A DNA stretch of 64,000 nt. It comes from Roseovarius sp. MMSF_3350 (GTDB lineage: Bacteria; Pseudomonadota; Alphaproteobacteria; Rhodobacterales; Rhodobacteraceae). Shown piece after piece: positions 35,844-52,587 of this stretch. Each line of letters opens with the position of its first letter. The stretch's first letter is position 1. The notes below the pieces were generated by a model that was not told the origin of the DNA, made no database searches, and was given only the letters and a program-made list of their open reading frames with translations. Made by a program: the position numbers and the translations under genes. Location: contig NZ_JASHIZ010000003.1 of NCBI RefSeq assembly GCF_030733425.1, positions 1 to 64,000 on the forward strand. Direction: 5' to 3'.

Positions 35844-36281
35844 TCAGCCGATCGTTCGCGGGTCGGATTTCAGTTTCGCGGCAATGGACTCGATCTGCGC
35901 CTGCAACAGCGGCTTGTTGACGAACTCGTCCACCGCACAACTCGCGTTCGCCCGCTCGATGTCCCCCGGGTCGAGCGATGAGGTCAGCATCACGACGATC
36001 ATGCTGCAAAAGTCCTTGCCGAAACGTGCGGTCGCTTCCTCAAGAAACTCGAAGCCGTTCATCTTCGGCATGTTTATGTCAAGGAAAAGGACGTCGATCC
36101 GGGGCCTGTCCTCTCGGGCCAGGAATTCCAGCGCGTCTTCGGCCATCGGAAAGGCGATCAGGGTCTTCACCAGGCCCGACCGCTGCATCAGCCGCCTGCA
36201 CGCGACGTGAAAGAACGTATCGTCGTCAACCAGAAGCACGGTTTCGATCGGCGCCAGCGGTTTGTCCTGTAGTTCACTCAT
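35844..36281 (-). CDS. Stand-alone receiver-domain response regulator
   Basis: A 145-residue CheY-like receiver without an output domain. VDDD (19-21) holds the acidic pocket, Asp68 in LFLDINMP is the phospho-acceptor, and FVNKPL carries the conserved Lys. Close relatives pair with kinases in phosphorelays or act through protein contacts. The start overlaps the end of the kinase gene by 8 nt, so the kinase upstream is its likely partner. Confidence 0.9.
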   Translation of the reverse strand: MSELQDKPLAPIETVLLVDDDTFFHVACRRLMQRSGLVKTLIAFPMAEDALEFLAREDRPRIDVLFLDINMPKMNGFEFLEEATARFGKDFCSMIVVMLTSSLDPGDIERANASCAVDEFVNKPLLQAQIESIAAKLKSDPRTIG

Positions 36282-37458
36282 GTTCGGGCATTCTTAGCGA
36301 CACGGTGAACACGGAGCCGCCACCGGGGTTCTCGCCGACCTCCAGCCCACCTTTCAAATTGTGGACGATCCGCCGGCACATCGTCAGGCCAAGTCCGCTC
36401 CCCGGAATATCCTCATGCCGATGCAACCGGTTGAACAACTCGAAGATGCGGTCGCGATACTCGGGCGCTATTCCGATCCCATTGTCGCGCACCTCGATCC
36501 GGGCGCGTCCGTCCGGATCGCGCGCGCCGGATTCTACCATTATTTCGGGGGGCCGGTCGGGGCAGCGGAACTTGACCGCGTTGGAAACGAGGTTCTGAAA
36601 CAGAACGCGCAGCATGACCGCGTCGCCCAGAACCACCGGCAAATCGCCCCGCCGCACCGTGGCCCCCGCGCCTTTCACCTCGGCTCTGAGATCCGCAATC
36701 ACCTCATCGACAATCGCGTTCAGATCGCAGGGCGCTTTCCTGATGTAGGTCCCTATCAACTGCGTGTAACGCAACAGGTCCTCGATCAGAACGGACATCC
36801 GCGAAAGGGTCTCCCGGCTCATATCGACCAGTTCCGTGACGTCATCGCCAAGATCGCCCTCGTTGCATTCGGACATTTCGGACAGCAGCATCGCCACCGT
36901 CTGTACCGGCGACTTCAGGTCATGCGACACCGCGTAGGCAAAGGATTTCAATTCGGCGTTCGACGCGTTCAGTGCCTCGTTCGCCCGCTGCAGGGACCGC
37001 CGGTACGCCCGTTCACGCCGTGCCTCGGCATCGACGTGTTCGAGCTCCGCGTTGAGATCGCGAAACGTCTTACCCAGCGCGTCTCCCCGCTCCGACACAA
37101 GCACGAAGTGCCGAGGCGCGGCACCGCCATTGCGGACGGGGCTTACGCGGAACCGCATTCTCGACGGGCTGCCCGGCGCCGGGTCGCGCAGCGGAAACAA
37201 CAATATCCCGCCAGAGGCGGCAACGATTATCTCCTTTATCGCGGCTTCGGGCGAGATGTCGAAGACATCGGAAAGGCCCCACTGGTCCGGCACGGCGCTG
37301 CATCCCGTGACACCTCGGGCCAGACGCGCCGCCATGGCATTGCTGGCGCAGACACGCGCCGATCGGTCGACCAGGATCGCATGTTTCGGCAGCGCCATGA
37401 AGGCGCTGCGTTCCAGCTCTTCCTGTCCGACCCGATTAACCAAAATACTCGCGGCCAA
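36274..37458 (-). CDS. Soluble sensor histidine kinase
   Basis: A 394-residue kinase with no membrane segment. A PAS-like N-terminal part (about residues 18-120) is followed by a coiled-coil stretch (135-170), the HisKA dimerisation domain with phospho-His179 in YAVSHDLKSPVQT, and an HATPase with the N box (NLVSNAVKF), DNGIGIAPE and GSGLGLTMCRRI. The layout recalls phytochrome-like light/energy kinases, but no GAF or PHY domain is present. It overlaps the upstream sensor-like gene by 23 nt and the receiver gene by 8 nt. Confidence 0.9.
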   Translation of the reverse strand: MAASILVNRVGQEELERSAFMALPKHAILVDRSARVCASNAMAARLARGVTGCSAVPDQWGLSDVFDISPEAAIKEIIVAASGGILLFPLRDPAPGSPSRMRFRVSPVRNGGAAPRHFVLVSERGDALGKTFRDLNAELEHVDAEARRERAYRRSLQRANEALNASNAELKSFAYAVSHDLKSPVQTVAMLLSEMSECNEGDLGDDVTELVDMSRETLSRMSVLIEDLLRYTQLIGTYIRKAPCDLNAIVDEVIADLRAEVKGAGATVRRGDLPVVLGDAVMLRVLFQNLVSNAVKFRCPDRPPEIMVESGARDPDGRARIEVRDNGIGIAPEYRDRIFELFNRLHRHEDIPGSGLGLTMCRRIVHNLKGGLEVGENPGGGSVFTVSLRMPEHE

Positions 37459-37945
37459 TTTCGCCCTCTGTCAGGTGCACGACGATACGGCACCGCGAGT
37501 CACCGCGCGCGATCGTTTCGGTCTTTTCGATACGGGCATAATCCAGGTTGTTCGCGGCGAGGCGCCCGAAAACGCTGGATGTCATCATGCAAAGCGCCTG
37601 CCGTCCGTGCACGTAATCCCCGAACGGACAGGCACTGTTCACCAGCACGATACGGTCACCCGATATCTCTTCTATCTCGAACCCGCCGTTGATGCGCGCC
37701 TTGAGATCCACCAGGGCGCCGGCCACCTGCTCCAGGTCCATCCTGTCGACATCGAGAAGTCCGCGATATTCCGCATCCATTTTGTCGCCGATCCGCGCCC
37801 CGACCCGCGCGAGGAACCCCTTGGCCTCTTCAAGGCCGACGCGATCCTCCAGCACGTCTGCAAGTTCGCGCAACAGCTCACGCAAAAACTGATCGCGATC
37901 TCTGGAAATTTTTCCCTCGGTGTCCGGGAAAGACAATGCCGCCAT
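37436..37945 (-). CDS. Cysteine-containing sensor-like protein (methanogen output domain type)
   Basis: A 169-residue soluble protein. The first half is helical and charged. The second half has NSACPFGDYVHGRQALCMM and ARGDSRCRIVVHL, with three cysteines (Cys106, Cys119, Cys152). This pattern fits the V4R-related 'methanogen output domain' group, whose ligand is not established. It is first in a three-gene unit with a kinase and a receiver and is translationally coupled to the kinase. An input role for the kinase is an inference. Confidence 0.6.
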   Translation of the reverse strand: MAALSFPDTEGKISRDRDQFLRELLRELADVLEDRVGLEEAKGFLARVGARIGDKMDAEYRGLLDVDRMDLEQVAGALVDLKARINGGFEIEEISGDRIVLVNSACPFGDYVHGRQALCMMTSSVFGRLAANNLDYARIEKTETIARGDSRCRIVVHLTEGEIGREYFG

Positions 37946-38115: not shown

Positions 38116-38220
38116 AAAATATCACATATTGGTCAGAAAAGGGTGGACTTCCAAAGCCGTCATCCCGAGGCTCCCCATCAAGAGGCCGGCCCGCGACCCG
38201 GCTTCGCAAGGGAGGACAGT

Positions 38221-39030
38221 TTGACCGATAGCGACCCGGACACCGGCACCCTGCCTGCGGGGCAAAGCGACAGGACGGCCGAGACATCGCTGGCCAAGGC
38301 GATCCGTCTTTTGCCGATCGTGGCCGCCCGCAACGCGACCGGAATCACCCTCTCGACCGTGGCCCGCAAGGCCAACCTCAAGACCGCGACCGCCCGCCGG
38401 CTGCTGCAGGGGCTGGTCGACGGCGGCCTGCTCAGCTTCGATCCCTATTCCAAGATCTACACGCTCGGCATCGGGATCTTCGACCTCGCCGGCGCCCCCG
38501 GCTCGCCGCGCCAGTTCGATCCGCTGCGCATGGAGCTGCGGCCCGCCCTGGCCGAAATCGCCGCCGCGACCGGCGAGACCGCCTTTCTATCCGTGCCATT
38601 CGGCGACGAGGCGCTCTGCATCGACGCGGCGGGGGATACCTTCGCGCTCTGCGCCAACACGCTTCAGGTCGGCGCGCGGCGTCCCCTCGGCGTCGGCGCG
38701 GGCAGCGCCGCTCTTCTCGCCGCCCTGCCCGAGGACCAGTGCGACCGCCACATCGCCGCCAACGCCGACGTCTACAGCCGCTATGGCGAGCTCAACGCCG
38801 CCGATGTCCGCCGCATGGTCCGGCACTGGCGCGAGCACCGCTGGCTGATCAACGCCTCCATCATCATCCCGGAGGTCGGCGCCATCGGCGTCGCCGTCTT
38901 TGACCCGTCGGGCCAGCTTCGGGCGGCCATCTCGGTGGCGGCCCTCAAATCCCGCATGGCGCCTGCGCGGCGCAAGGAAATCGTATCGGTCATGACCCGC
39001 GCCATCGTGCGGTCGGGTTTCACCACCTAA
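38221..39030 (+). CDS. IclR-family transcriptional regulator
   Basis: Likely controls the catabolic operon that follows 15 nt later. The N-terminal winged HTH reads GITLSTVARKANLKTATARRLLQGL, then an effector-binding IclR domain. I choose the TTG at 38221 because GGGAGG lies 5 nt upstream, giving 269 residues; a GTG at 38143 is in frame but has no visible ribosome site. The effector is unknown. Confidence 0.86.
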   Translation: MTDSDPDTGTLPAGQSDRTAETSLAKAIRLLPIVAARNATGITLSTVARKANLKTATARRLLQGLVDGGLLSFDPYSKIYTLGIGIFDLAGAPGSPRQFDPLRMELRPALAEIAAATGETAFLSVPFGDEALCIDAAGDTFALCANTLQVGARRPLGVGAGSAALLAALPEDQCDRHIAANADVYSRYGELNAADVRRMVRHWREHRWLINASIIIPEVGAIGVAVFDPSGQLRAAISVAALKSRMAPARRKEIVSVMTRAIVRSGFTT

Positions 39031-39045
39031 GGCAAAAAAGAACGC

Positions 39046-40569
39046 ATGTACCCCATTCACTTCTTCCATCGCGCCGCCCGGCTCTGGCCCGACCAAATCG
39101 CTGTCGAACATGGCGACCAGGCACTTACGTATGACCAGCTGCACGCCCGCGTCCAGGCGCTCGCCACCGGCCTGCAAGAGCTTGATCCCGAATTCGGAAG
39201 TCGCGTCGGCATCTGCTGCTACAACACCATCGACCACCTGACCTGCTGGCTGGCGGTGCTGGCCGCGGGCAAGGTCTGGGTGCCGTTGCAACCGATGAAC
39301 GCCAGCGCCGAGCTGGTGCGCGCGGTCGGCTTCACCCGCGCCAGCATCGTCATCGTTCAGACCGATACCGCCGACAAGCTGACCGGCGCGGACACCACAT
39401 TCCTGTTTTCCGATCCCGCCGGCGGCCCCGGTACCACCGGCGACCTCATCCGCGCCAACATGGGCCAGGCACCTGTCAAAGCCAACCTGCCATTGTCCGC
39501 CACCCAGGCGATCAAGTTTACCGGCGGCACCACCGGCCTGCCCAAGGGCGTGATGCAGCCCTACCGCGCGTGGAACACCAACATCGCGACCCAGGTCGCC
39601 GCCTGGTCTCTGGGCGAGGGCCAGCGCTACCTCGCTGCTGCCCCCATCACCCACGGCACCTCCACCTATATCCTGCCGACGCTGGCAACCGGCGGCACGC
39701 TTGTCCTGCTGGACCGGCCCCGCCCCGAACAGACCCTGGACTTCCTGCAAAACGCGCGGATCACCACCACCTTCGTGCCGCCCACAGTGCTGTACATGCT
39801 GATGGAGCTCGACGGCGTGCGCGACGCCGACTATGCCCACCTCAAGAACCTGATCTATGGCGCCGGCCCCATGCGCCCCGACGCCATCGGCCGTGCGCAG
39901 GACATCTTCGGCCCCTGCCTCGCCTCCACCTACGGTCAGACCGAGGCACCCCAGATCGCCACCATGATCTCGGCCGAAGAGCTGAAGGACCCCTCCAAGC
40001 GCGCCTCGGTGGGCCGCGAGACCCTGCTTAGTCAGGTCGAGATCATGGACGACAAGGGCAATGTCCTGCCCGCGGGCGAAACCGGCGAGATCGTCATCCG
40101 CGGCGACCTTCTGATGACCGGATACTGGGACCAGCCCGAGGCCACCGCCAGGACGCTGGTCGACGGCTGGCTGCACACCGGCGACCTGGGCCAGAAGGAC
40201 GCGGACGGCTATCTGTTCATCCGCGGCCGCGCCAAGGAGATGATCATCACCGGCGGCTTCAACGTCTACCCGGCGGATGTGGAAACCGTCATGGGCGAAC
40301 ACCCCGAGATCATCGACTGCGCCGTCTACGGCGTGCCCGACGACAAATGGGGCGAGGCGGTCCACGCCGCCGTTCAGGTGCGCGATGCCAAGGCCGTCAC
40401 GGCGGACGAGATCATCGCATTCATCCGCGAGCGCCTCGGTCCCGTCCAGACGCCCAAATCCGTCAATTTCCGTGACAGCCTGCCGCGCAACGCGATCGGC
40501 AAGCTTCAGAAGAACCAACTCTCCGAAGAGCACGCCGCCGCGCGGGCCGACGAACTTCAGAAAGGCTGA
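39046..40569 (+). CDS. AMP-forming acyl-CoA ligase
   Basis: Activates a carboxylic acid to its CoA thioester with ATP. The 507-residue protein has IKFTGGTTGLPKGVM (P-loop-like motif), YGQTEAPQ, the hinge GYLFIRGRAKEMIITGGFN and the C-terminal catalytic Lys in RNAIGKLQK. It follows the IclR gene and is 3 nt ahead of the citrate-synthase-fold gene. In this context it probably activates the acid imported by the TctCBA transporter of the same operon. Annotation as a fatty-acid ligase would be too specific. Confidence 0.88.
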   Translation: MYPIHFFHRAARLWPDQIAVEHGDQALTYDQLHARVQALATGLQELDPEFGSRVGICCYNTIDHLTCWLAVLAAGKVWVPLQPMNASAELVRAVGFTRASIVIVQTDTADKLTGADTTFLFSDPAGGPGTTGDLIRANMGQAPVKANLPLSATQAIKFTGGTTGLPKGVMQPYRAWNTNIATQVAAWSLGEGQRYLAAAPITHGTSTYILPTLATGGTLVLLDRPRPEQTLDFLQNARITTTFVPPTVLYMLMELDGVRDADYAHLKNLIYGAGPMRPDAIGRAQDIFGPCLASTYGQTEAPQIATMISAEELKDPSKRASVGRETLLSQVEIMDDKGNVLPAGETGEIVIRGDLLMTGYWDQPEATARTLVDGWLHTGDLGQKDADGYLFIRGRAKEMIITGGFNVYPADVETVMGEHPEIIDCAVYGVPDDKWGEAVHAAVQVRDAKAVTADEIIAFIRERLGPVQTPKSVNFRDSLPRNAIGKLQKNQLSEEHAAARADELQKG

Positions 40570-40572
40570 CCC

Positions 40573-41337
40573 ATGTCCAAACCAGCGCCCACGACATCGC
40601 TGTGCCGCTATACCGACACCGAGATCTTCTATCGCAACCACAACCTCGTGGACGAGCTGCTGACCGATGACTGCGATTTCGTCACCGTGATGATGCAACA
40701 CATCCTGAACCGCCCGGTCAGCCCCAGTCAGAAGCGCGTGATGAACGCGATCCTGATCGTGATGATGGAACACGGGCTGACGCCCAGCGCCATCACCACA
40801 CGGTCGATCTACATGTCCGCGCCCGAAAACTTGCAAGGCGCCGTGGCGGCCGGACTTCTGGCCGTCGGCAGCCAGTTCGTAGGCACGATCGAGAACAACG
40901 CCCGCCTGCTGTCGGAGCTGGTCGATCTGGACGCCGACGCCCAGGCCGCCCGCGCGACCGAAATCGTGCGCGAACACCGCGCCCGCAAGGCCCATCTGCC
41001 CGGCTTCGGCCACCACCTGCACAAACCCGACGACCCCCGCGCTCTCAAGCTGCTGGAGATCGGCGAGAAAGAATCCGACAACCCCCGCTACCTGCCCGCG
41101 CTGAAAACACTGTCGGCTGCCGTCGATGCCGAATTCGACCGCCACATCACCATCAACGCCACCGGCGCCACCGCCGCCCTTCTGGGCGACATGGACATCC
41201 CGGTGGAACTGATGCGCGGCTTTGCCGTCATCTCCCGTGCCGCCGGCCTCGTGGCGCATATCGCCGAAGAACAACAGAAACCGTCGGGGCGCTTCATATG
41301 GGAGACGATCGACAAGGCAATGCCCTTCGAGGAGTGA
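40573..41337 (+). CDS. Citrate-synthase-fold protein (citryl-CoA lyase-like)
   Basis: A 254-residue protein corresponding to the C-terminal half of the citrate synthase fold, as in citryl-CoA lyase. GFGHHLHKPDDPRA (His147) matches the GFGHxxYxxxDPRA block, and SRAAGLVAHIAEE the C-terminal block. Two catalytic positions differ: the first His of the LHGxA block reads Gln88 (LQGAV), and the Asp of the N-V-D block reads Thr197 (NAT). It may cleave a 3-hydroxy-3-carboxyacyl-CoA made by the upstream ligase, but the altered site leaves the reaction open. Translation is coupled to its neighbours (gaps of 3 nt). Confidence 0.7.
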   Translation: MSKPAPTTSLCRYTDTEIFYRNHNLVDELLTDDCDFVTVMMQHILNRPVSPSQKRVMNAILIVMMEHGLTPSAITTRSIYMSAPENLQGAVAAGLLAVGSQFVGTIENNARLLSELVDLDADAQAARATEIVREHRARKAHLPGFGHHLHKPDDPRALKLLEIGEKESDNPRYLPALKTLSAAVDAEFDRHITINATGATAALLGDMDIPVELMRGFAVISRAAGLVAHIAEEQQKPSGRFIWETIDKAMPFEE

Positions 41338-41340
41338 TCC

Positions 41341-42054
41341 ATGAGTGATTTCGCCATCGTCACCGGCGGCGCCCGCGGCATCGGCGCAGCCATCGCCGAG
41401 CGGCTCAAGGCCGACGGTCTGCGCGTCGCCGTGGTCGACCGCATCGTGCCCGAGCATGACCATGCCGACGAGGTGCTGGAACTGGACCTGTCCGATGTCG
41501 AGGCCACGCGCACCGCGTTGGAAAAATTCTGCGACGGCCGCCGCGTGACGCGGCTCGTGAACAATGCCGGCATCGTCGAACCCGCCGACGTGGAAGGGAC
41601 CGACCCCTATTCCATAGACAAGGTCGCGGCGGTCAACCTGCGCGCGCCGCTTGTCTGCCTGCAAGCCGCGCTGCCAGCGATGAAAGAGGCGCGACTGGGC
41701 CGTGTCGTCAACATTTCCAGTCGCGTGGCTCTCGGCAAGGAGTTGCGCACCGCCTATGCGGCCACCAAGGCCGGCCTGCACGGCATGACCAAGACCTGGG
41801 CGCTGGAACTCGGTCGGCACGGCATCACCGTCAACGCGCTCGGCCCCGGCCCCATCGCCACCGAACTTTTCAACAAGGTAAACCCGCCGGGTGACCCGCG
41901 CACCGAAAAGATCATCGCGACGGTGCCCATGAAACGCACCGGAACGCCTCAGGACGTGGCGGACGCCGTGTCGTTCTTCTGTTCCGAAAGGGCGGGGTTC
42001 GTGACCGGACAGGTCCTCTACGTCTGCGGAGGAATGACGATCGGATCGGTCTGA
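41341..42054 (+). CDS. Short-chain dehydrogenase/reductase
   Basis: A 237-residue NAD(P)-dependent SDR. TGGARGIG (residues 7-14) binds the cofactor, NNAG stabilises the core, and NISS with YAATK provide the catalytic Ser, Tyr and Lys. The start is 3 nt after the lyase-like gene, so it is part of the same transcript. It may oxidise a hydroxy group of the imported acid or reduce a product. The substrate cannot be told from sequence. Confidence 0.87.
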   Translation: MSDFAIVTGGARGIGAAIAERLKADGLRVAVVDRIVPEHDHADEVLELDLSDVEATRTALEKFCDGRRVTRLVNNAGIVEPADVEGTDPYSIDKVAAVNLRAPLVCLQAALPAMKEARLGRVVNISSRVALGKELRTAYAATKAGLHGMTKTWALELGRHGITVNALGPGPIATELFNKVNPPGDPRTEKIIATVPMKRTGTPQDVADAVSFFCSERAGFVTGQVLYVCGGMTIGSV

Positions 42055-42107
42055 AGACGATCCGGACCAAGGAAAGACACGACACTTCATCAAAGGAGGA
42101 GACCAAG

Positions 42108-43091
42108 ATGAAACTCAATCGTAGAACCCTGATCGGCGCCGTCAGCGCCACCGCGATGCTGGCCTTCGGCGGCTCTGCCATGGCGCAGGACTACCCGACC
42201 AAGCGTATCACCCTGATCGTGCCCTACAGCGCCGGCGGCGCCACCGACGTTCTGGCCCGCCAGGTGGCCGATGGCCTCGCACAGGTGCTGGATGAAACCG
42301 TGACTGTCGAAAACCGCCCCGGCGCCGGCGCCACGCTGGGCACCACGCAGGCGGCCAATGCCCGTCCTGACGGCTACACGCTCTTCATGGGGCAGGTCTC
42401 GTCGCACGGTATCGCGCCCGCGGTCTACAAGAACCTGCAATACGACCCGGTCGAGGATTTCACGCCGATCAAGCTGATCCTGTCGATCCCCAACGTCATG
42501 GTCGTCAACAAGGACAGCCCCTACCAGACCGCGCAGGAATTTCTCGACGCCGCGAAATCCGAAAACATGAGCTTCGGCTCCTCGGGCGTGGGCAGTTCGA
42601 TTCACCTCTCGGGCGAGATGTTCAAGGCCCGCACCGGCGCCGACATGACCCACGTGCCCTTCCGCGGCAGCGGCGAGGCCGTACCGGCCCTCTTGTCGGG
42701 CGATGTCGACGTGATGTTCGACAACCTGCCCTCGGCCATGCCGCATATCCAGTCGGGCGCCCTGCGCGCGCTGGCGGTCACCACGCCGGAACGTTCCGAG
42801 CATCTCGAGGACGTGCCGACGCTGGACGAGCTGGACATCGCCGAGCTTGACGGCTTCGCCGCGCGCTCGTGGTTCGGCCTTTTGGCCCCCGCCGGCACCG
42901 ACGACGCGGTTGTCGCCACGCTGAACGAGGCGCTGGACGAGGTTCTTGCAAGCGACAGCTTCAAGAAATTCGCCGATACGCGCGGCGGCCAGATCGAGGG
43001 CGGCAGCCCCGAGGATTTCGCCAAATATATCGACGGCGAACTTTCCAGCTGGAAAACCGTGGTGGATGAGGCCGGTGTAACCGTCGAATAA
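42108..43091 (+). CDS. tctC: Tripartite tricarboxylate transporter binding protein, first system
   Basis: A 327-residue periplasmic binding protein (Bug/TctC family) that captures the acid for the TctAB carrier. The leader (MKLNRRTLIGAVSATAMLAF, cut near AMA-QD) is followed by the family opening DYPTKRITLIVPYSAGGATD and NRPGAGATLGT. A GGAGG-type site precedes the ATG. It sits between the SDR gene and tctB. A strong 10-bp hairpin follows its stop codon. Confidence 0.93.
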   Translation: MKLNRRTLIGAVSATAMLAFGGSAMAQDYPTKRITLIVPYSAGGATDVLARQVADGLAQVLDETVTVENRPGAGATLGTTQAANARPDGYTLFMGQVSSHGIAPAVYKNLQYDPVEDFTPIKLILSIPNVMVVNKDSPYQTAQEFLDAAKSENMSFGSSGVGSSIHLSGEMFKARTGADMTHVPFRGSGEAVPALLSGDVDVMFDNLPSAMPHIQSGALRALAVTTPERSEHLEDVPTLDELDIAELDGFAARSWFGLLAPAGTDDAVVATLNEALDEVLASDSFKKFADTRGGQIEGGSPEDFAKYIDGELSSWKTVVDEAGVTVE

Positions 43092-43107
43092 TCCTGACAA
43101 ACAACAG

Positions 43108-43130
43108 GTGGCGGCCCCGCGGGCCGCCAC
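43108..43130 (+). other. Intercistronic hairpin after tctC (first system)
   Basis: A perfect 10-bp stem, GTGGCGGCCC and GGGCCGCCAC, with a 3-nt loop, 16 nt past the tctC stop. There is no T-tract, so it probably protects the 3' end of a processed tctC mRNA or attenuates read-through, giving more binding protein than membrane subunits. Confidence 0.75.
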
Positions 43131-43159
43131 TCTTCAAAGGCGGCATGGGAGGGCCAGCC

Positions 43160-43681
43160 ATGAGCGAAACAGATATAGACACCGAGAACCGCAAGGGTCG
43201 CCGCCGCGAGATCGTCTTCGCGGTGTTGACGATTCTGGCCTCGGTGCTTTTCGCATTCTTCGTGATCCCCGCCGGGGTGACGTCGCCGGCGTCGGTCAAG
43301 CACCTGCCCCTGTCGCCCACCTTCCTGCCTTATGTATTGACGATTGGCGTCGGTCTCTTCGCCCTGATCCACCTTCTGGAAGCAATCTTTGCCGCGCATA
43401 TTCCCGGCGAGGATGACGCCTCGCTGGGGACACATCCGCACTGGAAATCCCGCGTGCTGATGCTTGTCGGCCTGCTTGTGCTCTATCTTCTGATGCCCGA
43501 GCGGCTGGGCATGCCGCTCACCGCCATCGTTGTGACCATCGCCCTCATGGCCATCGGCGGGGAACGCCGCCCGCTCATCCTGCTGGGCGTCGGCATCGCC
43601 GTGCCGCTGCTGGTCTATCTCTTTTTCGCCCATGTCGCGCAGGTGCCCCTGCCCATGGGCCTGTTCGAAGACTGGATGTGA
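43160..43681 (+). CDS. tctB: Tripartite tricarboxylate transporter small membrane subunit, first system
   Basis: A 173-residue inner-membrane protein with about four or five hydrophobic segments, typical of TctB. The ATG at 43160 has GGGAGG 7 nt upstream and is preferred to an ATG at 43145. The first 15 residues are polar. It ends 3 nt before tctA. Confidence 0.87.
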   Translation: MSETDIDTENRKGRRREIVFAVLTILASVLFAFFVIPAGVTSPASVKHLPLSPTFLPYVLTIGVGLFALIHLLEAIFAAHIPGEDDASLGTHPHWKSRVLMLVGLLVLYLLMPERLGMPLTAIVVTIALMAIGGERRPLILLGVGIAVPLLVYLFFAHVAQVPLPMGLFEDWM

Positions 43682-43684
43682 TCC

Positions 43685-45190
43685 ATGCTTGAGAATATCG
43701 CAACCGGCTTCGAAATGTTCTTCACGCTCGGCAACCTGCTGGCGATCACCGCCGGTGTCTGCCTCGGCGTGACCGTTGGCGCGATCCCCGGCCTCACGGC
43801 GACCATGGCCGTGGCCCTCGCCCTGCCTTTCACCTTCAACCTCGATCCGGTCACCGGCATCCTGCTGCTGGTGGGCGTCTACAAGGGCGGCGTCTTCGGC
43901 GGCTCGATCACCGCGATCCTGATCCGCGCGCCCGGCACGCCCGCCGCCGCCTGCACCCTTCTCGACGGCTACCCTCTTGCGCAAAAGGGCCAGGCGGGCA
44001 AGGCGCTCAACATGGCGCTCTACGCCTCCTGCATCGCCGACTTCCTGTCCAACCTGTCCCTGATCTTCTTCGCCAGCCTTATCGCGGGCCTGGCGCTCGC
44101 CTTCGGCCCGCCCGAATATTTCTGGCTGATCTGCTTTTCACTTACCGTGGTGATCTCGATCTCCGGCTCGTCCCTGACCAAGGGCCTGATCTCGGGCCTG
44201 CTGGGCCTCCTGACCTCCACCATCGGGCTCGATCTGGTCTACGGCACCCAGCGGTTCACCTTCGACAATTTCAACCTGATGGGCGGGGTCAGCTATATCC
44301 CCCTGCTGATCGGCCTCTTCGCCCTGCCAGAAGTGATCGACTTCTACGTGCGCAAGGTCGCGCCCTTCACGGTCAAGACCGCCGACAAGAGCCGCGTGAG
44401 TCTGGCCGAACTCAAATCCAGCCTCGTCACCATCGTGCGCGGCAGCTTCATCGGCGTCATCATCGGCACAATCCCCGGTGCCGGCGCCACCGCCGCCGCG
44501 TTCCTCTCGTACGGTGAGGCGCGCCGCACCTCCAAGTCCCCCGAAACATTCGGCAAGGGCAATATCGAGGGCGTCGCCGCCTCCGAGGCGGGCAACAACG
44601 GCGTCGCCGGCGCCACGCTCATCCCCCTGCTGGCGCTCGGCATCCCGGGCGACGTGGTGACGGCGGTGATCCTCGGGGCGTTCATGCTTCAGGGCCTCAC
44701 CCCCGGCCCGCTGATGTTCCAGGACAACATCACCATCATCTACGCCATATTCATCGGCATCATGCTCAGCTCCGTCGTGCTGCTGGGGTCAGGCAAGCTC
44801 GCCATCCGCTACTTCGCCCGCATCGCCGACATCCCGCGCCATATCCTGCTGCCCATTGTCCTGATGTTCTGCGTCTTCGGCAGCTATGCCGTGCAAAGCC
44901 AGATGTTCGACGTGGGCGTGATGCTGGCCTTCGGCTTGCTGGGCTACATCATGATGAAGATCGACATGGCTGCGGCCCCCTTCCTGATGGGCTTCATCCT
45001 GGGCCCGCTCTTCGAGGACAACCTGCGCCGCTCGTTCCTCATTTCCGAGGATATCACGATCTTCTTCCGCAGCCCGATCTGCTGGATCTTCATCGTCATC
45101 ACCATTCTTTCGGCCTTCGTCGGCGTCCGCCGCGAGCTGCGCGCCACCCGCGCCAAGCGTGACGCCCTGCGCTCCTCGGGGGCGGCATGA
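43685..45190 (+). CDS. tctA: Tripartite tricarboxylate transporter large membrane subunit, first system
   Basis: A 501-residue polytopic carrier with the family signatures GAIPGLTATMAVALALPFTF near the N terminus and IIGTIPGAGATAAAFLSYGEA mid-protein, plus about 11-12 hydrophobic segments. It transports the acid delivered by the TctC just upstream. It overlaps the next SDR gene by 4 nt (ATGA). Confidence 0.94.
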   Translation: MLENIATGFEMFFTLGNLLAITAGVCLGVTVGAIPGLTATMAVALALPFTFNLDPVTGILLLVGVYKGGVFGGSITAILIRAPGTPAAACTLLDGYPLAQKGQAGKALNMALYASCIADFLSNLSLIFFASLIAGLALAFGPPEYFWLICFSLTVVISISGSSLTKGLISGLLGLLTSTIGLDLVYGTQRFTFDNFNLMGGVSYIPLLIGLFALPEVIDFYVRKVAPFTVKTADKSRVSLAELKSSLVTIVRGSFIGVIIGTIPGAGATAAAFLSYGEARRTSKSPETFGKGNIEGVAASEAGNNGVAGATLIPLLALGIPGDVVTAVILGAFMLQGLTPGPLMFQDNITIIYAIFIGIMLSSVVLLGSGKLAIRYFARIADIPRHILLPIVLMFCVFGSYAVQSQMFDVGVMLAFGLLGYIMMKIDMAAAPFLMGFILGPLFEDNLRRSFLISEDITIFFRSPICWIFIVITILSAFVGVRRELRATRAKRDALRSSGAA

Positions 45191-46014
45191 CCAGCGCGGC
45201 GGACACCGGCCTTCAGGGCCGCATCGCGCTGGTGATCGGCGCCGGCTCCATCGCGTCGGGCATCGGCATCGGGCGGGCCATCGCCATTTGCCTCGCCCGC
45301 GAAGGCGCCCATGTCATTGCCGCCGACAATGATCTTTCCTCTGCCCAGGAAACCGTGACCCATGTCACCAATGCAGGCGGCAGCGCCGAGGCCGCAACGG
45401 TCGATGTCCTCGACGACGTCAGCGTCACCGCCCTGATCTCGGGCATCGAGGCCAAACACGGACGCCTCGACATCCTGCACTGCAACGTGGGCCTGGGCAA
45501 AAGCGGGCCGTCCGAAAACACCACCCCCGCCGACTGGCGCCGCATCAGCGACGCCAACCTCACTTCGCTGCACGTCGCCGCCCAGGCCGCGATTCCGATG
45601 ATGCGTGCGCAGGGTCGCGGGGTCATCACCGTCACCTCCTCGATCGCGTCGATCCGGCATGTGGGCTATCCCCACCTCGCCTATTCCGCCACCAAGGCCG
45701 GCGCCAACCAGTTCGCCCGCTCGCTCGCGGTGGAACTCGCGCCCGACAACATCCGCGTGAATTCCATCATCGCGGGCCTCATTGACACCCCCCGTATCGG
45801 CGTCACGCTCGCTAACAGCTACGGCGACCGGACCGAGGCGCAGATGCGCGCCGCCCGCGCCGCGCAATGCCCGTTGGGGCGCATGGGCACCGCCTGGGAC
45901 ATCGCCGAGGCGGCAGTCTTCCTGGCCTCCGACAAGGCCGGCTACATCACCGGAACCGAACTGGTGGTCGATGGCGGTCTGTCGGCCAGCATACGCCAAA
46001 CCGTCGATGGCTGA
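45187..46014 (+). CDS. Second short-chain dehydrogenase/reductase of the first island
   Basis: A 275-residue SDR. The cofactor loop is longer than usual (GAGSIASGIGIGRA) and is followed by NVG in place of NNAG, then TVTSS and YSATK for the catalytic residues. The C-terminal VVDGG motif is present. It is coupled to tctA and to the membrane-protein gene by short overlaps. Having two different SDRs in one transcript suggests two redox steps on the imported compound. Confidence 0.85.
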   Translation: MTSAADTGLQGRIALVIGAGSIASGIGIGRAIAICLAREGAHVIAADNDLSSAQETVTHVTNAGGSAEAATVDVLDDVSVTALISGIEAKHGRLDILHCNVGLGKSGPSENTTPADWRRISDANLTSLHVAAQAAIPMMRAQGRGVITVTSSIASIRHVGYPHLAYSATKAGANQFARSLAVELAPDNIRVNSIIAGLIDTPRIGVTLANSYGDRTEAQMRAARAAQCPLGRMGTAWDIAEAAVFLASDKAGYITGTELVVDGGLSASIRQTVDG

Positions 46015-47392
46015 CGCACCCGTCATGTTCGGGCGGGTGCGCGACGTCCTCAACCCGCTGCTGGCGCTCTACCTGCTTGCCACCGGTGCCGCGGCCATCG
46101 TCGTGCCGGTGCCGGAAATTCCCGTGGTCTTCGCCCTGCTGGCGGTGGCCCTGCTCAATCGCCGCGGCCTCAACCGACCCGCCTGGATCATCGGCGGCCT
46201 TGTTTTTGTGCTCTTCCTCTGGGGCTGGGCCGGCGGCTGGATCGCGGAAACCGGCGGCCTCGACCGTATGATCTTTCTCTCCGCCTTCCTCGTCGCGCTC
46301 GGCCTGCTCAGCCGCGCGGCCTCCCGCGCGCCGGACATTCGCAAGGCCGCGGCCGTGGTGGCAAGCCGCCCGCGCGGCGCACGCTATCTCTTCGTCACGC
46401 TCGGCACCCATATCTTCGGCATCTTCCTAAATTTCGGCGCCGCAAGCCTGATGGCCACCCTGCTCGCCCAGACCCGCGAGACACTCGAAAGACAGAACGC
46501 GGTCGAGGACCTGACCCTCTCGATGCTGCGCGGCTTCGGCGCCATGCCCATGTGGTCGCCCTTGGCCCTGTCGACGATCATCACCCTGTCCATCCTCCCC
46601 GAGGTCGATTACTTCCAGATCCTTCCCTACGGCCTTGCCGCGGCGGTTCTTTACCTCGGCGCGGGCTATGCCGCGTCGCGCGGCCCCCGCGCCACCGATC
46701 CCGACCCCGGCAAATCACCCATGACGCGCGCCCTGCCCGCCCTGCCCGAACAGCTCATCCTGCTGCGCGTCGTCGCCCGGGTCGCCCTGCTCGTGGCGGT
46801 GGCCTTCGTGCTGCACGTGGCCGCGGACCTCTCGATGCCGGCCTCGGTGCTGGTGGCGGTGCTGGGCTTCTCGCTCGCCTGGTGGGCGATCCAGGTTGCC
46901 GCGCGCATCGCCCCCGGCCTGCACCGGGAACTGGCCGCCACCGCGGCAAGCGGCGTCAACGAGATCGTCATCGTCTCCTGCGCAGGCTTTCTCGGCGCGA
47001 TCATCGCATGGTTCGTCAGCAGCTTCGACGGCGCCCTGCCCTCGCCCCCCGATGCGCTGGTGCCCGCCCTCATCGCGCTGGTTCCCCTGGGCATGGTGCT
47101 GGGGGGCGTCTCGGCGCTCAATCCCATTGTGTCGGCCAGCATCCTTTTGGGCGTGCTGCACCCGCTGGTGCCCGAACCCGCCCTGATGTGGCTGGCGCTC
47201 GCCGCGATCGTCGGCTGGGGTCTCACCGCGGGCTCCACACCCTTCACCGCCAACGTGCTGATCACAACCCGCATCATGCAACTGGAACCGGCCCCGCTCC
47301 TGCGCCGGGGCAACTTGAAACTCACCGTACTGTCCTTGACCGCACTCGGCCTCTTCCTCGCCGTCGGCACGGTCATCTCACTCCAAGGTTAG
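46007..47392 (+). CDS. Unrecognised polytopic membrane protein
   Basis: A 461-residue protein with about 11-12 hydrophobic segments, starting at the ATG at 46007 that overlaps the SDR stop. I do not recognise a named family. Two paired features recall ion-transporter (IT)-superfamily carriers: SALNPIVSASILLG and TAGSTPFTANVLITTR, each a small-residue stretch near a membrane re-entry in the second half. An inner-membrane transporter or exporter of pathway product is plausible but not shown. It is tightly embedded between an SDR and the quinone oxidoreductase gene. Confidence 0.65.
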   Translation: MADAPVMFGRVRDVLNPLLALYLLATGAAAIVVPVPEIPVVFALLAVALLNRRGLNRPAWIIGGLVFVLFLWGWAGGWIAETGGLDRMIFLSAFLVALGLLSRAASRAPDIRKAAAVVASRPRGARYLFVTLGTHIFGIFLNFGAASLMATLLAQTRETLERQNAVEDLTLSMLRGFGAMPMWSPLALSTIITLSILPEVDYFQILPYGLAAAVLYLGAGYAASRGPRATDPDPGKSPMTRALPALPEQLILLRVVARVALLVAVAFVLHVAADLSMPASVLVAVLGFSLAWWAIQVAARIAPGLHRELAATAASGVNEIVIVSCAGFLGAIIAWFVSSFDGALPSPPDALVPALIALVPLGMVLGGVSALNPIVSASILLGVLHPLVPEPALMWLALAAIVGWGLTAGSTPFTANVLITTRIMQLEPAPLLRRGNLKLTVLSLTALGLFLAVGTVISLQG

Positions 47393-47402
47393 GAGCCCTC
47401 TC

Positions 47403-48398
47403 ATGCCCCAGGCCATGCAAGCCATCTTCGCCACAAGCCCCGGCGGCCCCGAAGTGCTGGTGCCCCGCGAGATTCCCGTACCCCGCCCCGGTCCGGGCGA
47501 GGTGCTCATCCGCGTCGCCGCCGCGGGGGTCAACCGCCCCGACCTGCGCCAGCGCCAGGGCGGCTATCCCCCGCCTCCCGGCGTAACCGAGGTGCTGGGG
47601 CTTGAGGTGGCAGGCGAGGTCGTCTCCTGCGGCGACGACGTGCTGTCTTTTGCCGAGGGCGACAAGGTTGTCGCGCTGGTCGCGGGCGGCGGCTACGCCG
47701 AATACTGCGTCGCGCCAGCCCCGCAGGTCCTGCCCTGGCCCTCCGGCCTTTCGGCGATCGAGGCGGCGGCCCTTCCCGAGACCTACTTCACCGTCTGGAC
47801 CAATCTATTCCGCATCGGCCGCCTCGCCGAAGGCGAAACCGTCCTGATCCACGGCGGTGCCAGCGGCATCGGCACCACCGCCGTCCAGCTCGCCCGCGCC
47901 ATGGGGGCCACCGTCTACGCCACCGCCGGCACCGACGAGAAATGCCAGGCCTGCCGCGATCTGGGCGCGACCGAGGCGATCAATTACCGCACGGCCCGGT
48001 TCGAGGATGAAATCGCCCGCCTCACCGACGGCGGCGGCGTCGATGTCATTCTCGACATGATCTGCGCCGATTATCTCGACCGCAACCTCGCCTCTCTCGC
48101 CGTCTCCGGGCGGCTGGTCATCATCGCGTTTCTCGGCGGCGGCAAGACCGAGATCGACATCGAGGGCATGATCCGCAGGCGCCAGACCCTCTGCGGCAGC
48201 ACCCTGCGCCCGCAATTGCCGCAGGAAAAGGGCCTTATCGCCGCCGATCTGCTGGCCCGGGTCTGGCCCCTGCTGGAACAGGGCGCGGTAAAGCCGGTCA
48301 TCAACTCCGTCCACCCGCTCGCCCGCGCCGCTGATGCCCATGCCGAGCTCGAAGCGGGCGGCCACGTCGGCAAGATCGTCCTCTCGGTGCGCGAATAG
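47403..48398 (+). CDS. NADPH:quinone oxidoreductase (zeta-crystallin/PIG3-type MDR)
   Basis: A 331-residue medium-chain oxidoreductase without zinc ligands. The nucleotide-binding motif is HGGASGIGTTAVQLARAMGA (near residues 148-167). The N terminus (PGPGEVLIRVAAAGVNRPDL) is typical of the PIG3-like quinone reductases. AGGAG lies 7 nt before the ATG. It closes the first island: its stop is directly abutted by the stop of the convergent LacI gene. It may reduce an unsaturated or quinoid intermediate, or simply balance redox. Confidence 0.86.
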   Translation: MPQAMQAIFATSPGGPEVLVPREIPVPRPGPGEVLIRVAAAGVNRPDLRQRQGGYPPPPGVTEVLGLEVAGEVVSCGDDVLSFAEGDKVVALVAGGGYAEYCVAPAPQVLPWPSGLSAIEAAALPETYFTVWTNLFRIGRLAEGETVLIHGGASGIGTTAVQLARAMGATVYATAGTDEKCQACRDLGATEAINYRTARFEDEIARLTDGGGVDVILDMICADYLDRNLASLAVSGRLVIIAFLGGGKTEIDIEGMIRRRQTLCGSTLRPQLPQEKGLIAADLLARVWPLLEQGAVKPVINSVHPLARAADAHAELEAGGHVGKIVLSVRE

Positions 48399-49430
48399 TC
48401 AGTCCTCGCGCGGCGGCCCGCTGGTGGCGCGCACCATGATCTCGGGCGGGATCAGCGCCGCCACGTCCACCGCCTCCTCCGAGGTGGTCAGTTGCACGAT
48501 GGCGGCGGCCGCCCGCGCCCCGATCGTCCGTGCCGGGATGCGCACCGTGCTCAGCGACGGCTCGAACTCCTTCGAGCCCTTGAAATCCCCGATGCCCGTC
48601 ACCGTCACCCGCCCCGGCACGGCGATCCCGGCCCGGTTCAGCGCATGCAGCGCGCCCCAGGCCAGCACGTCGTTGCCGCAGAGGATGGCGGTCGGCAACG
48701 CGCCCTCCGCAATCAGCGCCTCGACCGCGCTCTTCGCCGTCGCCACGCTGTATGGCGCCACCAACTGCCACGCCTCGGGGATACTGCACCCCGCCTCCGC
48801 CAGCGCATCCTTCACCCCTGCAAAGCGTAGCGAGGCCCGGTCGTTGCCTTCAACGGGCGGGAATATCGCCGCCACCTGCCTGTGGCCCAAAGCCGCTACG
48901 TGCCGCCCGATCAGGTACCCCGCCTGATAATTGTCCGACCCCACGCAGGGAAACGGCGCTTGCGGTGAAAAGCTCCACAGCAACAGCGTCGGCATCTCCT
49001 GCTGCGCCAGCAGGTCCAGCGTATCCCGAGTATGCTCGATCCCGATCAGCGCCACGCCATCCACCCGATGTTCCAGCATCTTGCGTGTCAACGCATACTC
49101 CCGGTCCAGGTTGAACCCGTGCGAGGCCAGCAGGATCGTGAAGCCCAGCTCCTCCACCGCCTCGGAAAAACTCTGGATCATCTCGGCAAATATCGCTTGG
49201 TCCACGGTGGGCACGATCAGCCCGATCGTGCCGCTGCGAATGCCGTGGATCGTCTGTGCCGCACGGTTGCGGATATAGCCCAACCGCCGCACCGCGGCAT
49301 CTATCTTCTTGCGGGTCGTGGCCTTTACCAGGTCCGGGTGGTTGAAGCTGCGCGACACCGTCGAGGGCGACACGCGCGCCGCCTTGGCGACAGCAATGAT
49401 ATCGGTCTTTCTCTTATTTTTGTCAGACAC
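48399..49430 (-). CDS. sauR: LacI-family regulator, probable SauR-like
   Basis: A 343-residue repressor. The N-terminal HTH reads DIIAVAKAARVSPSTVSRSFN, followed by the periplasmic-binding-protein-like effector domain. It is divergent from the second TctABC-dehydrogenase-ligase operon, with a perfect palindrome in the 100-nt gap. The known sulfoacetate cluster of Cupriavidus necator likewise has a divergently oriented regulator gene (sauR). The symbol is by context, not by sequence match. Confidence 0.7.
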   Translation of the reverse strand: MSDKNKRKTDIIAVAKAARVSPSTVSRSFNHPDLVKATTRKKIDAAVRRLGYIRNRAAQTIHGIRSGTIGLIVPTVDQAIFAEMIQSFSEAVEELGFTILLASHGFNLDREYALTRKMLEHRVDGVALIGIEHTRDTLDLLAQQEMPTLLLWSFSPQAPFPCVGSDNYQAGYLIGRHVAALGHRQVAAIFPPVEGNDRASLRFAGVKDALAEAGCSIPEAWQLVAPYSVATAKSAVEALIAEGALPTAILCGNDVLAWGALHALNRAGIAVPGRVTVTGIGDFKGSKEFEPSLSTVRIPARTIGARAAAAIVQLTTSEEAVDVAALIPPEIMVRATSGPPRED

Positions 49431-49453
49431 TTGCGCGGCCCCACGCGGCCAAA

Positions 49454-49483
49454 AATGAAAACATTTGCAATATTGTTTTCATT
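49454..49483. promoter_or_regulatory. Palindromic operator between LacI regulator and tctA
   Basis: Perfect 10-bp arms, AATGAAAACA and TGTTTTCATT, flank a 10-nt spacer that itself contains CAATAT. Each arm holds a TGAAAA half of the kind bound by LacI-family proteins. It lies 24 nt from the regulator start and 48 nt from the proposed tctA start, so it can control both directions. Confidence 0.75.
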
Positions 49484-49530
49484 GCATACCCTTCCAGGTC
49501 ACTTACGACAAGCCAATGGGAGGATACGGC

Positions 49531-51060
49531 TTGGAGTTCCTGTTCTACTTCGGCGACGTGTTCACGCCGTTCAATTTCATGCTGCTTCTGATCGGCACGA
49601 TCGGCGGGCTGATCCTGGGCGCCACGCCGGGCCTGTCGCCCACCATGGCCGTGGCCCTGCTCATTCCCTTCACGTTCAAGCTCGACGCCACGCAGGGCCT
49701 CATCCTGCTGGGCGCGGCCTATACCTCGACGGTCGCGGGCGGTGCGGTCAGCGCCATCCTGCTCAAGATCCCGGGCGCGCCGGCCAACATTGCCACAACG
49801 CTCGACGGGCACACCATGGCCAAGAACGGCCAGGGCGCCCGCGCCCTGCAACTGTCGTTCATCTCTTCGGCCATCGGCGGCGTCTTCGGGGTTCTGCTGC
49901 TGATATTCCTGACGCCGGTACTCGCCGAATGGGCGCTGGCCTTTGGCCCCTCGCACCTCTTCTGGCTGGCCATCCTCGGCGTCACCGTCATCGGCTCGCT
50001 CGATTCCAGCTCGGTGGTCAAGGGCCTCTTGTCGGGCTGCATCGGGCTCTGGCTCGCCACCATTGGCTTCGACGACGTGATGGGCGCCCAACGCTTCATC
50101 TTCCATTCCAGCGTCTCGGGCGGCATCAACATCATCCCCGCCCTCATCGGCCTCTTTGCCATCCCGCAGGTCATCACCATGTTCGCCAAGGGCCGGCATC
50201 AGCATGACGCCGAAGTCCTCAAGGTCGAGAAAAGCCCGATCATGGATTCGATCCGCGAGGTCTTCCGCCGCTCCCGCGCCTTGGGGATCGGCACGATGAC
50301 GGGCTCCTTCATCGGCCTCATCCCTGGCGTCGGCGGCCAGATCGCCGGACTTGTGGCCTATGACCAAGCCCGCAAGACCAGCCGCGAGCAAAAGAAATTC
50401 GGCACCGGCCACAGCGAGGGCGTGATCGCCGCCGAAAGCGCCAACAACGCCATGGTCGGACCCTCTCTTGTCCCGCTGCTGACCCTCTCGATACCCGGCT
50501 CGCCCACCGCCGCCGTGCTGCTGGGCGGCCTGCTGATCCACGGGATCTTCCCGGGCAGCGACCTGTTCGAGAACTACCCCGATGTCGCCTGGACCTTCAT
50601 CAACTCCATGCTGATCGGCCAGATCCTGATGTGCGTCTTCGGCCTCTACGTGGCCGGGCTGGCGGCGCGGGTGGCGCAGGTCCCCAACGCGGTCATGGCC
50701 GCCGTGGTGCTGGCGCTCGCCGTCTTCGGCAGCTACTCGGTGCAGAACTCAATGGGCGACGTCTACATCATGGCCGCCCTGGGCACCGGCATGTACTTTC
50801 TCGAGCGCTTCGGCTTTTCCGCAGCACCGCTGGTGCTGGGCCTCATCCTCGGCCCCATCGCCGAGGCGAATTTCGTGCAGGGCGCCATGATCGCCAACGC
50901 CACCTCCAGCATGGGCAGCTACTTCTTCACCGGCACGCTCAACCTCACGCTCATCGGCATCGTCGTGGCCTCCATCGCCTACTCGGTCTGGATGGAACTG
51001 CGCCAGCGCCGCTTCCTCAGCAAGGAAGACACCCTCGAACAACAGGAGCGGACCACGTGA
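49531..51060 (+). CDS. tctA: Tripartite tricarboxylate transporter large membrane subunit, second system
   Basis: A 509-residue polytopic carrier with the signatures GATPGLSPTMAVALLIPFTF and GLIPGVGGQIAGLVAYDQARK. The favoured start is the TTG at 49531 (LEFLFYFGDVFTPFN), because GGGAGGA sits 7 nt upstream; an ATG at 49516 overlaps that ribosome site. It is first in the operon controlled by the divergent LacI regulator. In the sulfoacetate reading it would replace the MFS carrier SauU. It overlaps tctB by 4 nt. Confidence 0.9.
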   Translation: MEFLFYFGDVFTPFNFMLLLIGTIGGLILGATPGLSPTMAVALLIPFTFKLDATQGLILLGAAYTSTVAGGAVSAILLKIPGAPANIATTLDGHTMAKNGQGARALQLSFISSAIGGVFGVLLLIFLTPVLAEWALAFGPSHLFWLAILGVTVIGSLDSSSVVKGLLSGCIGLWLATIGFDDVMGAQRFIFHSSVSGGINIIPALIGLFAIPQVITMFAKGRHQHDAEVLKVEKSPIMDSIREVFRRSRALGIGTMTGSFIGLIPGVGGQIAGLVAYDQARKTSREQKKFGTGHSEGVIAAESANNAMVGPSLVPLLTLSIPGSPTAAVLLGGLLIHGIFPGSDLFENYPDVAWTFINSMLIGQILMCVFGLYVAGLAARVAQVPNAVMAAVVLALAVFGSYSVQNSMGDVYIMAALGTGMYFLERFGFSAAPLVLGLILGPIAEANFVQGAMIANATSSMGSYFFTGTLNLTLIGIVVASIAYSVWMELRQRRFLSKEDTLEQQERTT

Positions 51061-51521
51061 CCGACCGCCCCCGCACCCAGCACATCATCGCCAGCGGTCT
51101 GGTGGCCTTTGTCGGCATCTGGGTCGCCTGGCTCAGCTTCACCGGCGAACCCGCCCGCGCCTTTCTGTTTCCCCGCATCATCTCGGTCGTGTTCGTGGCT
51201 TTGGCCCTCTGGACCTTCGGCAAGGCGCTCCTGGGCAAGACCCGCGTCGGCCCCGGCCTCAGCGTCATCGCCATGCGCAACATCCTGCCCGGCATCCTCG
51301 TCCTGCTGGTCTATGTCTTCTGGGCCGCGCCCACGCTGGGCTTCTACACCGCGTCCACCATCGCGTTCTTCATCCTGCTGTCCCTCTACGATCCCGCCCC
51401 CCACGGCGAGCCAAGTACATGGGTCAAACGGGTGCTGATCACGGCCGGTTTCCTGGCCGTGATGTACGGTCTCTTCGCACTGCTGCTCGGGGTCTTCACC
51501 CCGCGAGAGATCCTTTTCTGA
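51057..51521 (+). CDS. tctB: Tripartite tricarboxylate transporter small membrane subunit, second system
   Basis: A 154-residue membrane protein with four or five hydrophobic segments, starting at the GTG at 51057. The start overlaps the tctA stop (GTGA), and AGGAG lies 8 nt upstream. The longer open frame upstream runs inside tctA and is a shadow. FLFPRIISVVFVALALW is typical of TctB. Confidence 0.86.
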   Translation: MTDRPRTQHIIASGLVAFVGIWVAWLSFTGEPARAFLFPRIISVVFVALALWTFGKALLGKTRVGPGLSVIAMRNILPGILVLLVYVFWAAPTLGFYTASTIAFFILLSLYDPAPHGEPSTWVKRVLITAGFLAVMYGLFALLLGVFTPREILF

Positions 51522-51564
51522 AAACCAAGAAGCGAAAGACAACTTTCCAAGGGAGGAACTACCG

Positions 51565-52527: not shown

Positions 52528-52540
52528 GCCCCAAATCACC

Positions 52541-52567
52541 GGGGCGCGCGCCCGATCCGCGCGCCCC
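52541..52567 (+). other. Intercistronic hairpin after tctC (second system)
   Basis: A perfect 10-bp stem, GGGGCGCGCG and CGCGCGCCCC, with a 7-nt loop, 13 nt past the tctC stop and 20 nt before the next start. There is no T-tract. It has the same position and design as the hairpin after tctC of the first system. Confidence 0.75.
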
Positions 52568-52587
52568 TCACAAGAAAGGTCACCACC

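Follow-up and report, generated by a model that had tools for sequence, protein, structure and literature searches.

The window analysed here, a 64,000-nucleotide stretch of DNA from Roseovarius sp. MMSF_3350, carries at positions 38221-48398 a gene for an IclR-family regulator and nine further genes, all on the plus strand, among which those for an AMP-forming acyl-CoA ligase and a short enzyme of the citrate synthase (CS) fold stand next to each other (Table 1). The first-pass annotation of this stretch had described an IclR gene followed by nine co-directional, closely spaced genes, and the gene coordinates, from which all gaps and overlaps were computed, coupled with Pfam matches bear this out in content and in order. 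The gaps are 15 nucleotides (nt) between the regulator and ligase genes, 3 nt on either side of the CS-fold gene, 53 nt between SDR1 and TctC, 68 nt between TctC and TctB and 3 nt between TctB and TctA, while TctA overlaps SDR2 by 4 nt, SDR2 overlaps the membrane protein gene by 8 nt and the latter is separated from the quinone oxidoreductase (QOR) gene by 10 nt; the regulator may alternatively start at an in-frame GTG at 38143. Nine of the ten proteins were above the Pfam cut-off (for IclR, AMP-binding, Citrate_synt, SDR, TctC, TctB, TctA, SDR and ADH_zinc_N), which confirms the families that had been assigned to the TctCBA importer, the CoA ligase, the CS-fold enzyme and the two SDRs. The module is built from known kinds of enzyme and is widely conserved, it was found to be apparently undescribed, and its key enzyme possesses a rebuilt active site.

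Table 1. Features of the operon and its upstream region (positions in the window)
Feature	Position	Strand	Remarks
Candidate IclR operator TTATC-N7-GATAA	38098..38114		5' of regulator gene
IclR-family regulator	38221..39030	+	PF01614, PF09339; TTG start
AMP-forming acyl-CoA ligase (LIG)	39046..40569	+	PF00501, PF13193
Short CS-fold enzyme, Asp-less class (CCL)	40573..41337	+	PF00285, NF004868
SDR1, FabG/acetoacetyl-CoA-reductase-like dehydrogenase	41341..42054	+	PF13561
TctC / Bug-type periplasmic binding protein	42108..43091	+	PF03401
TctB small permease subunit	43160..43681	+	PF07331
TctA large permease subunit	43685..45190	+	PF01970
SDR2 dehydrogenase	45187..46014	+	PF13561
Membrane protein, ~10 hydrophobic segments	46007..47392	+	without Pfam or NCBIfam match
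PIG3-type quinone oxidoreductase (QOR)	47403..48398	+	TIGR02824, 462 bits against a cut-off of 296.8

The CS-fold protein, at 254 amino acids, is of the short CS-fold type (~250 residues) of citryl-CoA lyase, and aligns with the Pfam profile of citrate synthase only over the C-terminal portion of that profile (positions 144-350 of 357). Two NCBIfam models named 'citryl-CoA lyase' match it, NF004867 and NF004868 (PRK06224.1-4 / 1-5), the former with 365 bits, under its cut-off of 409, and the latter with 261.6 bits, over its cut-off of 193, so that the protein passes a model whose functional name mismatches its residues; it is from NF004868 that the database label derives. The predicted structure (mean pLDDT 86) was matched best by citryl-CoA lyase 6hxp (TMq 0.78, 28% identity), which is likewise the nearest solved relative by sequence, and Thr197 of the window protein aligns with the Asp of the 6hxp motif NVDG. 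Threonine occupies this position in all 81 sequences made up of the window protein and the 80 loci described below, in 14 of 25 further homologues (Ser in nine and Ala in two; these are not all independent, L041 and L085 being one contig) and in five of six more homologues (Ala in the sixth). Throughout the 106 aligned sequences the Asp of the citryl-CoA lyase NxDG motif is replaced, and the window protein furthermore has Phe102 at the position of the HGGA His and His148 at that of the GHR Arg. Arg156 and Arg222 are kept in 106 of 106 sequences and His147 in 105, and owing to the near-invariance of these three residues the CS-fold protein is probably an active enzyme.

Comparison of 30 loci, fetched out of 39 matches of a search of the phylum (L180-L209), separated the short CS-fold proteins cleanly into an Asp-less class of 16, the window protein included, which are without the Asp and the HGG His and carry GHP or GHH, and an Asp-keeping class of 14, which possess Asp, the HGG His and GHR (GHK in one). 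The replacements in the Asp-less class are Thr, Ser, Asn or Ala for the Asp, Phe, Val or Ile for the HGG His and Pro or His for the GHR Arg. Judged by these residues, two classes of short Pseudomonadota CS-fold proteins share one database name, citryl-CoA lyase, and for the putative Asp-less enzyme this name is to be regarded as unsafe, because the Asp, the HGG His and the GHR Arg have been lost together. Orthologues differ in how the models treat them, as L180 and L141 are over the NF004867 cut-off and L085 is under it, like the window protein; the host genome itself has a single full-length citrate synthase, encoded elsewhere, and the window protein is its only short CS-fold protein. Two further residues were rejected as marks of the Asp-less class: His150, which is present in Asp-keeping members and absent from L191, and Glu66 in place of Asp as a strict mark, as L170 and two of the 25 further homologues retain Asp there. 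Loss of the His alone is not decisive, since human ACLY is also without the HGGA His. With regard to the Asp, a study on human ACLY reports that an Asp1026Ala mutant forms no acetyl-CoA and that a catalytic as opposed to an allosteric role of this residue is debated (PMC10115795). Many genome records give the name 'citryl-CoA lyase' to proteins without a residue essential for ACLY activity, and this can mislead pathway reconstruction, since such a label suggests that citrate is cleaved or that a part of the reductive tricarboxylic acid cycle is present.

An alignment of three CS-fold proteins, searched against named genome contigs, yielded 167 related stretches, and the counts given here refer to the best 80 of these (identity 57-97%), with neighbours counted within 6.5 kb at set identity thresholds. 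The nearest named record for the CS-fold protein is that of Roseovarius atlanticus (97% identical), and the taxa represented include Roseovarius, Methylobacterium, Azorhizobium, Jiella, Acuticoccus and Stella among the Alphaproteobacteria and Bordetella, Cupriavidus, the Acidovorax group, Rubrivivax, Variovorax and Polynucleobacter among the Betaproteobacteria. The ligase gene lies directly 5' of the CS-fold gene at 78 of the 80 loci, with a median gap of 8 nt from ligase stop to CS-fold start, an arrangement that is therefore not due to chance; the co-conservation in relatives that had been proposed as a check is thus seen for this pair across both classes of Proteobacteria. The gap is between -10 and +100 nt in 75 of the 78, the outliers L146 (-777), L149 (-121) and L112 (+609) possibly reflecting frame or start errors, and at L158, which is without ligase, the contig end cuts the locus. 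Near the pair were found TctC (72/80), IclR (61/80), SDR2 (58/80), SDR1 (42/80), TctB (12/80), TctA (11/80) and the membrane protein (4/80). The commonest pattern, at 20 loci, is IclR, TctC, ligase, CS-fold enzyme, SDR1 and SDR2, followed by the same set without SDR1 at 18 loci, while 17 loci with the ligase have no SDR match (E 1e-6, within 6.5 kb), 14 of these having at least 2.7 kb of downstream sequence (five are from Pseudacidovorax) and three ending sooner. The kernel of the module is therefore the ligase plus the CS-fold enzyme, with the SDRs as frequent partners and the membrane protein and QOR as local additions. Of the earlier view that all nine structural genes form one regulon, what is supported is a single co-conserved set of TctCBA importer, ligase, CS-fold enzyme and two SDRs beside an IclR regulator, to which the membrane protein (4/80) and QOR (7/80) do not belong; a nine-gene unit was rejected because these two are lineage-specific.

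Pairwise protein distances are correlated between ligase and CS-fold enzyme (0.95), ligase and SDR2 (0.96) and CS-fold enzyme and IclR (0.97), which fits joint inheritance, shared species ancestry also contributing. Among the 60 largest clusters of open reading frames (ORFs) from the 80 loci, those present at more than nine loci are core families, TctA, or presumed antisense shadows of core ORFs, judged as such by coordinates and sequence starts, and thiolase-like genes, sought with seven queries from the host genome, occur at just three loci (L083, L105 and L151). The spread of the module is patchy, as copies of at least 80% identity are present in two of 198 genomes of the family and matches above 370 bits in three of 398 genomes of the phylum, the host genome included in each case, and plasmid- or megaplasmid-borne copies are found in Ponticoccus, Polaromonas and Cupriavidus. 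At the 57 loci outside the Alphaproteobacteria, TctC was detected at 53, whereas neither TctA nor TctB was detected close to the pair at any of them under the thresholds used.

Upstream of the regulator gene, TTATC-N7-GATAA represents a candidate operator. The 4.1 Mb genome contains this pattern exactly once (a reversed control pattern occurs twice), this being also the single match in the window and none being obtained in 100 shuffles of it. Of 20 alphaproteobacterial loci, 15 agree with TTMTC-N7-GAKAA at 9-10 of its 10 positions upstream of the regulator gene; this consensus was chosen after the sites had been inspected, and some loci have identical sites (L085 and L161; L097 and L100). The consensus was not reached at the other five (L081, L082, L086, L089 and L101), and none of 23 betaproteobacterial loci, 22 of which have a divergent IclR, showed a match of at least 9/10.

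The ligase is an ANL AMP-forming CoA ligase, with PF00501 and PF13193 over cut-off and the motifs FTGGTTG-x-PKG, YGQTE, TGD and PRNAIGK. Across 82 sequences its pocket stretches HGTSTY and TYGQTEAPQ hardly vary (Ser206 is Gly in eight and Thr205 is Ala in four), and their conservation suggests that the ligases may share one substrate. Among solved structures, the ligase is nearest to fatty-acid and feruloyl ligases, SDR1 to FabG, acetoacetyl-CoA reductases and BbsD, SDR2 to 5jc8 and TctC to 2dvz and 5oei. Tripartite tricarboxylate transporters make use of Bug/TctC receptors, and the operon likewise encodes a complete TctCBA system, each subunit being over its Pfam cut-off.

Relatives of the Asp-less enzyme in other surroundings provide a further indication of its role. 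According to annotated plasmid records (the Asp-less state being confirmed for L162-L171), such relatives often adjoin CoA ligases or CoA transferases; one sits with acyl-CoA dehydrogenase, MaoC and SDR genes, another has a ligase some genes away, in Polaromonas the ligase beside the CS-fold gene is unannotated and was detected by tblastn, and one further record carries no annotation. These CoA ligase, transferase and dehydrogenase neighbours point to general CoA-thioester catabolism rather than to citrate. According to the genome paper on Cupriavidus metallidurans, strain CH34 encodes no citryl-CoA synthetase/lyase route, and yet the ligase/CS-fold pair is present on the CH34 megaplasmid, which agrees with a different function. 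On plasmid pBB2 of C. necator N-1 (L164), genes for YciI, maleylacetate reductase and intradiol dioxygenase come after the pair, and the cluster, with two YciI proteins in all, also encodes a GMC oxidoreductase and an amidohydrolase, which gives a lead to the substrate class. In a Sulfitobacter-type cluster (L042, L165) a CoA transferase gene lies directly 5' of the Asp-less CS-fold gene, and a TRAP transporter, an isochorismatase-like hydrolase, a hydroxyacyl-CoA dehydrogenase, a helix-turn-helix regulator and a thiamine-diphosphate enzyme are also encoded.

Taken together, we give about even credence to the reading that the operon, under local regulation, serves to break down one imported carboxylic acid and that the product of the ligase is cleaved by the CS-fold enzyme. 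TctCBA, or TctC in conjunction with permeases encoded elsewhere, would import the acid, the ligase would convert it to its CoA thioester and the CS-fold enzyme would cut a carbon-carbon bond of this thioester without the Asp/His pair of citrate synthase, while SDR1 (most likely a 3-hydroxyacyl-CoA dehydrogenase) and SDR2, where present, may oxidise hydroxyl groups in preparation for cleavage. IclR would sense the acid or an intermediate and control this operon only. Hydrolysis is considered less likely than cleavage, since a ligase coupled to a thioesterase would constitute a futile cycle in which ATP is wasted, and since a number of loci keep the ligase and CS-fold enzyme without SDRs. Several points weigh against this reading. 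The loss of the Asp would remove the known acid for cleavage via an acetyl-CoA enolate; the family matches of the ligase are generic; at L127 the CS-fold gene is accompanied by no ligase across 10 kb upstream; two distant Asp-less contexts show neither a CoA ligase nor a CoA transferase among the annotations of the stretch examined; and the SDRs, being absent from a number of loci, may stand outside the pathway. The ligase was matched over cut-off by no specific NCBIfam model among the 25 listed of 109 matched families, including any for a fatty-acid or aromatic-acid ligase, an identity that had earlier been named as one that would speak against the operon's proposed role.

The strongest alternative, which we nevertheless consider doubtful, is that the CS-fold enzyme cleaves an SDR-made 3-oxoacyl-CoA by a retro-Claisen reaction, in the role of a thiolase or of a ring hydrolase such as BadI, and not a 3-hydroxyacyl-CoA by a retro-aldol reaction. 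SDR1 resembles dehydrogenases of 3-oxoacyl/3-hydroxyacyl thioesters, thiolase-like genes are as rare as noted above, and the pBB2 pair adjoins genes of maleylacetate reductase and intradiol dioxygenase, a pathway that would yield a 3-oxo acid, whereas the 17 ligase loci without a nearby SDR argue against it, and we know of no CS-fold enzyme for retro-Claisen cleavage, which also counts against it. An ordinary citryl-CoA lyase-like enzyme, in which Thr197 or another residue substitutes for the Asp and which acts on a citrate- or citramalate-like acid, appears improbable: the closest solved relative and the NCBIfam name are those of a citryl-CoA lyase, and the role of ACLY Asp1026 is debated, but the three marker residues of 6hxp and of the Asp-keeping class are replaced jointly while that separate class of the same phylum retains them (one with GHK), and in the ACLY study Asp1026Ala makes no acetyl-CoA (PMC10115795). 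The citryl-CoA-lyase chemistry assumed in the first-pass annotation is accordingly disfavoured, and nothing was found that points to the citrate-, citramalate- or itaconate-like substrates suggested there. Less probable again is operation in the synthase direction, with a ligase-made acyl-CoA being condensed with an oxo acid by the CS-fold enzyme, for although the methylcitrate cycle also pairs a ligase with a CS-fold protein (PrpE/PrpC), the window protein has only the C-terminal part of the profile and is missing the enolate-forming base, and Pfam and NCBIfam searches of the ten operon proteins found no full-length CS fold and no methylcitrate-cycle dehydratase or lyase. A role of the CS-fold protein as a mere CoA-binding partner of the ligase, with no catalysis of its own, is very unlikely, as the loss of catalytic residues and the allosteric role argued for the ACLY CS-like module (PMC10115795) are set against (near-)invariance of the active-site residues His147, Arg156 and Arg222 over 106 sequences.

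The closest known counterpart to the proposed ligation and cleavage is the citryl-CoA synthetase and citryl-CoA lyase (6hxp) of Hydrogenobacter, where activation is likewise followed by a short CS-fold enzyme of the same fold, whereas the Asp, HGG His and GHR Arg are replaced here and the pair sits in a peripheral operon with an importer, SDRs and an IclR regulator. The Hydrogenobacter citryl-CoA synthetase is an ATP-grasp enzyme and the operon ligase, by contrast, is AMP-forming. Aerobic CoA-dependent acid degradation employs an AMP-forming ligase, a 3-hydroxyacyl-CoA dehydrogenase and a thiolase, of which the operon has ligase and dehydrogenase in common; it differs in the scarcity of thiolase-like genes, the CS-fold enzyme presumably taking the position of the cleaving step. 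Degradation of itaconate and citramalate proceeds by way of a CitE-type (TIM-barrel) citramalyl-CoA lyase, a CoA transferase and a hydratase, families that are absent from the ten operon proteins, to which the search was confined. In agreement with the earlier statement that the set fits no named pathway, no description of the module and no named pathway matching its genes was found in the literature searched, the coverage of which excludes preprints and most subscription papers. A wider proposal, which we advance tentatively and consider possible rather than probable, is that the Asp-less class constitutes an unrecognised family of enzymes cleaving carbon-carbon bonds of CoA thioesters, which replace the thiolases ending several unrelated catabolic clusters and are paired with AMP-forming ligases here and with CoA transferases elsewhere. 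Should the Asp-less class indeed cleave CoA thioesters, it would represent a new solution to carbon-carbon cleavage within a very old fold, and marine, freshwater and soil Proteobacteria would use the module to consume an acid that has seemingly never been named; the ligase/CS-fold pair is small enough for direct testing.

The membrane protein, with its 10 hydrophobic segments by hydropathy and a predicted structure of low confidence score (mean pLDDT 39), has no relative in Pfam, NCBIfam or PDB sequences, and none of six sequences of its family that were scanned reached the cut-off of any model in Pfam or NCBIfam; matches below threshold were obtained for the homologue L072 (one, to CitG) and for L065 (three). 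It belongs to the operon at the four loci counted above, all in Roseovarius, while more remote family members (23-34% identity) are encoded by 45 of the remaining 197 genomes of the taxonomic family, where no common neighbourhood was seen in eight loci with ORFs judged by eye; the protein is a lineage-specific passenger. QOR, which in Roseovarius lies beyond the 6.5-kb limit and was therefore counted separately, stands beside the set at at least 58% identity at seven loci, four from Roseovarius and three from Jiella/Fulvimarina, and in the copies of Ponticoccus and of G002, a genome of the same family, the set stops after SDR2.

Directly downstream of the operon, the window holds at 48399-55487 a probable sulfoacetate island, comprising a LacI regulator gene on the minus strand, a second TctA (49465-51060), a TctC (51565-52527) and the acylating sulfoacetaldehyde dehydrogenase SauS (52588-53991; NF047625, 658.5 bits over a cut-off of 600), and the AMP-forming ligase of the island (within 53886-55487) could be SauT. 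The LacI and TctA genes of the island were not found at L082-L084 and do adjoin the operon in L081. Upstream of the operon, on the opposite strand at 35844-37945, genes for a response regulator, a histidine kinase and a MetOD1-domain protein lie in a row.

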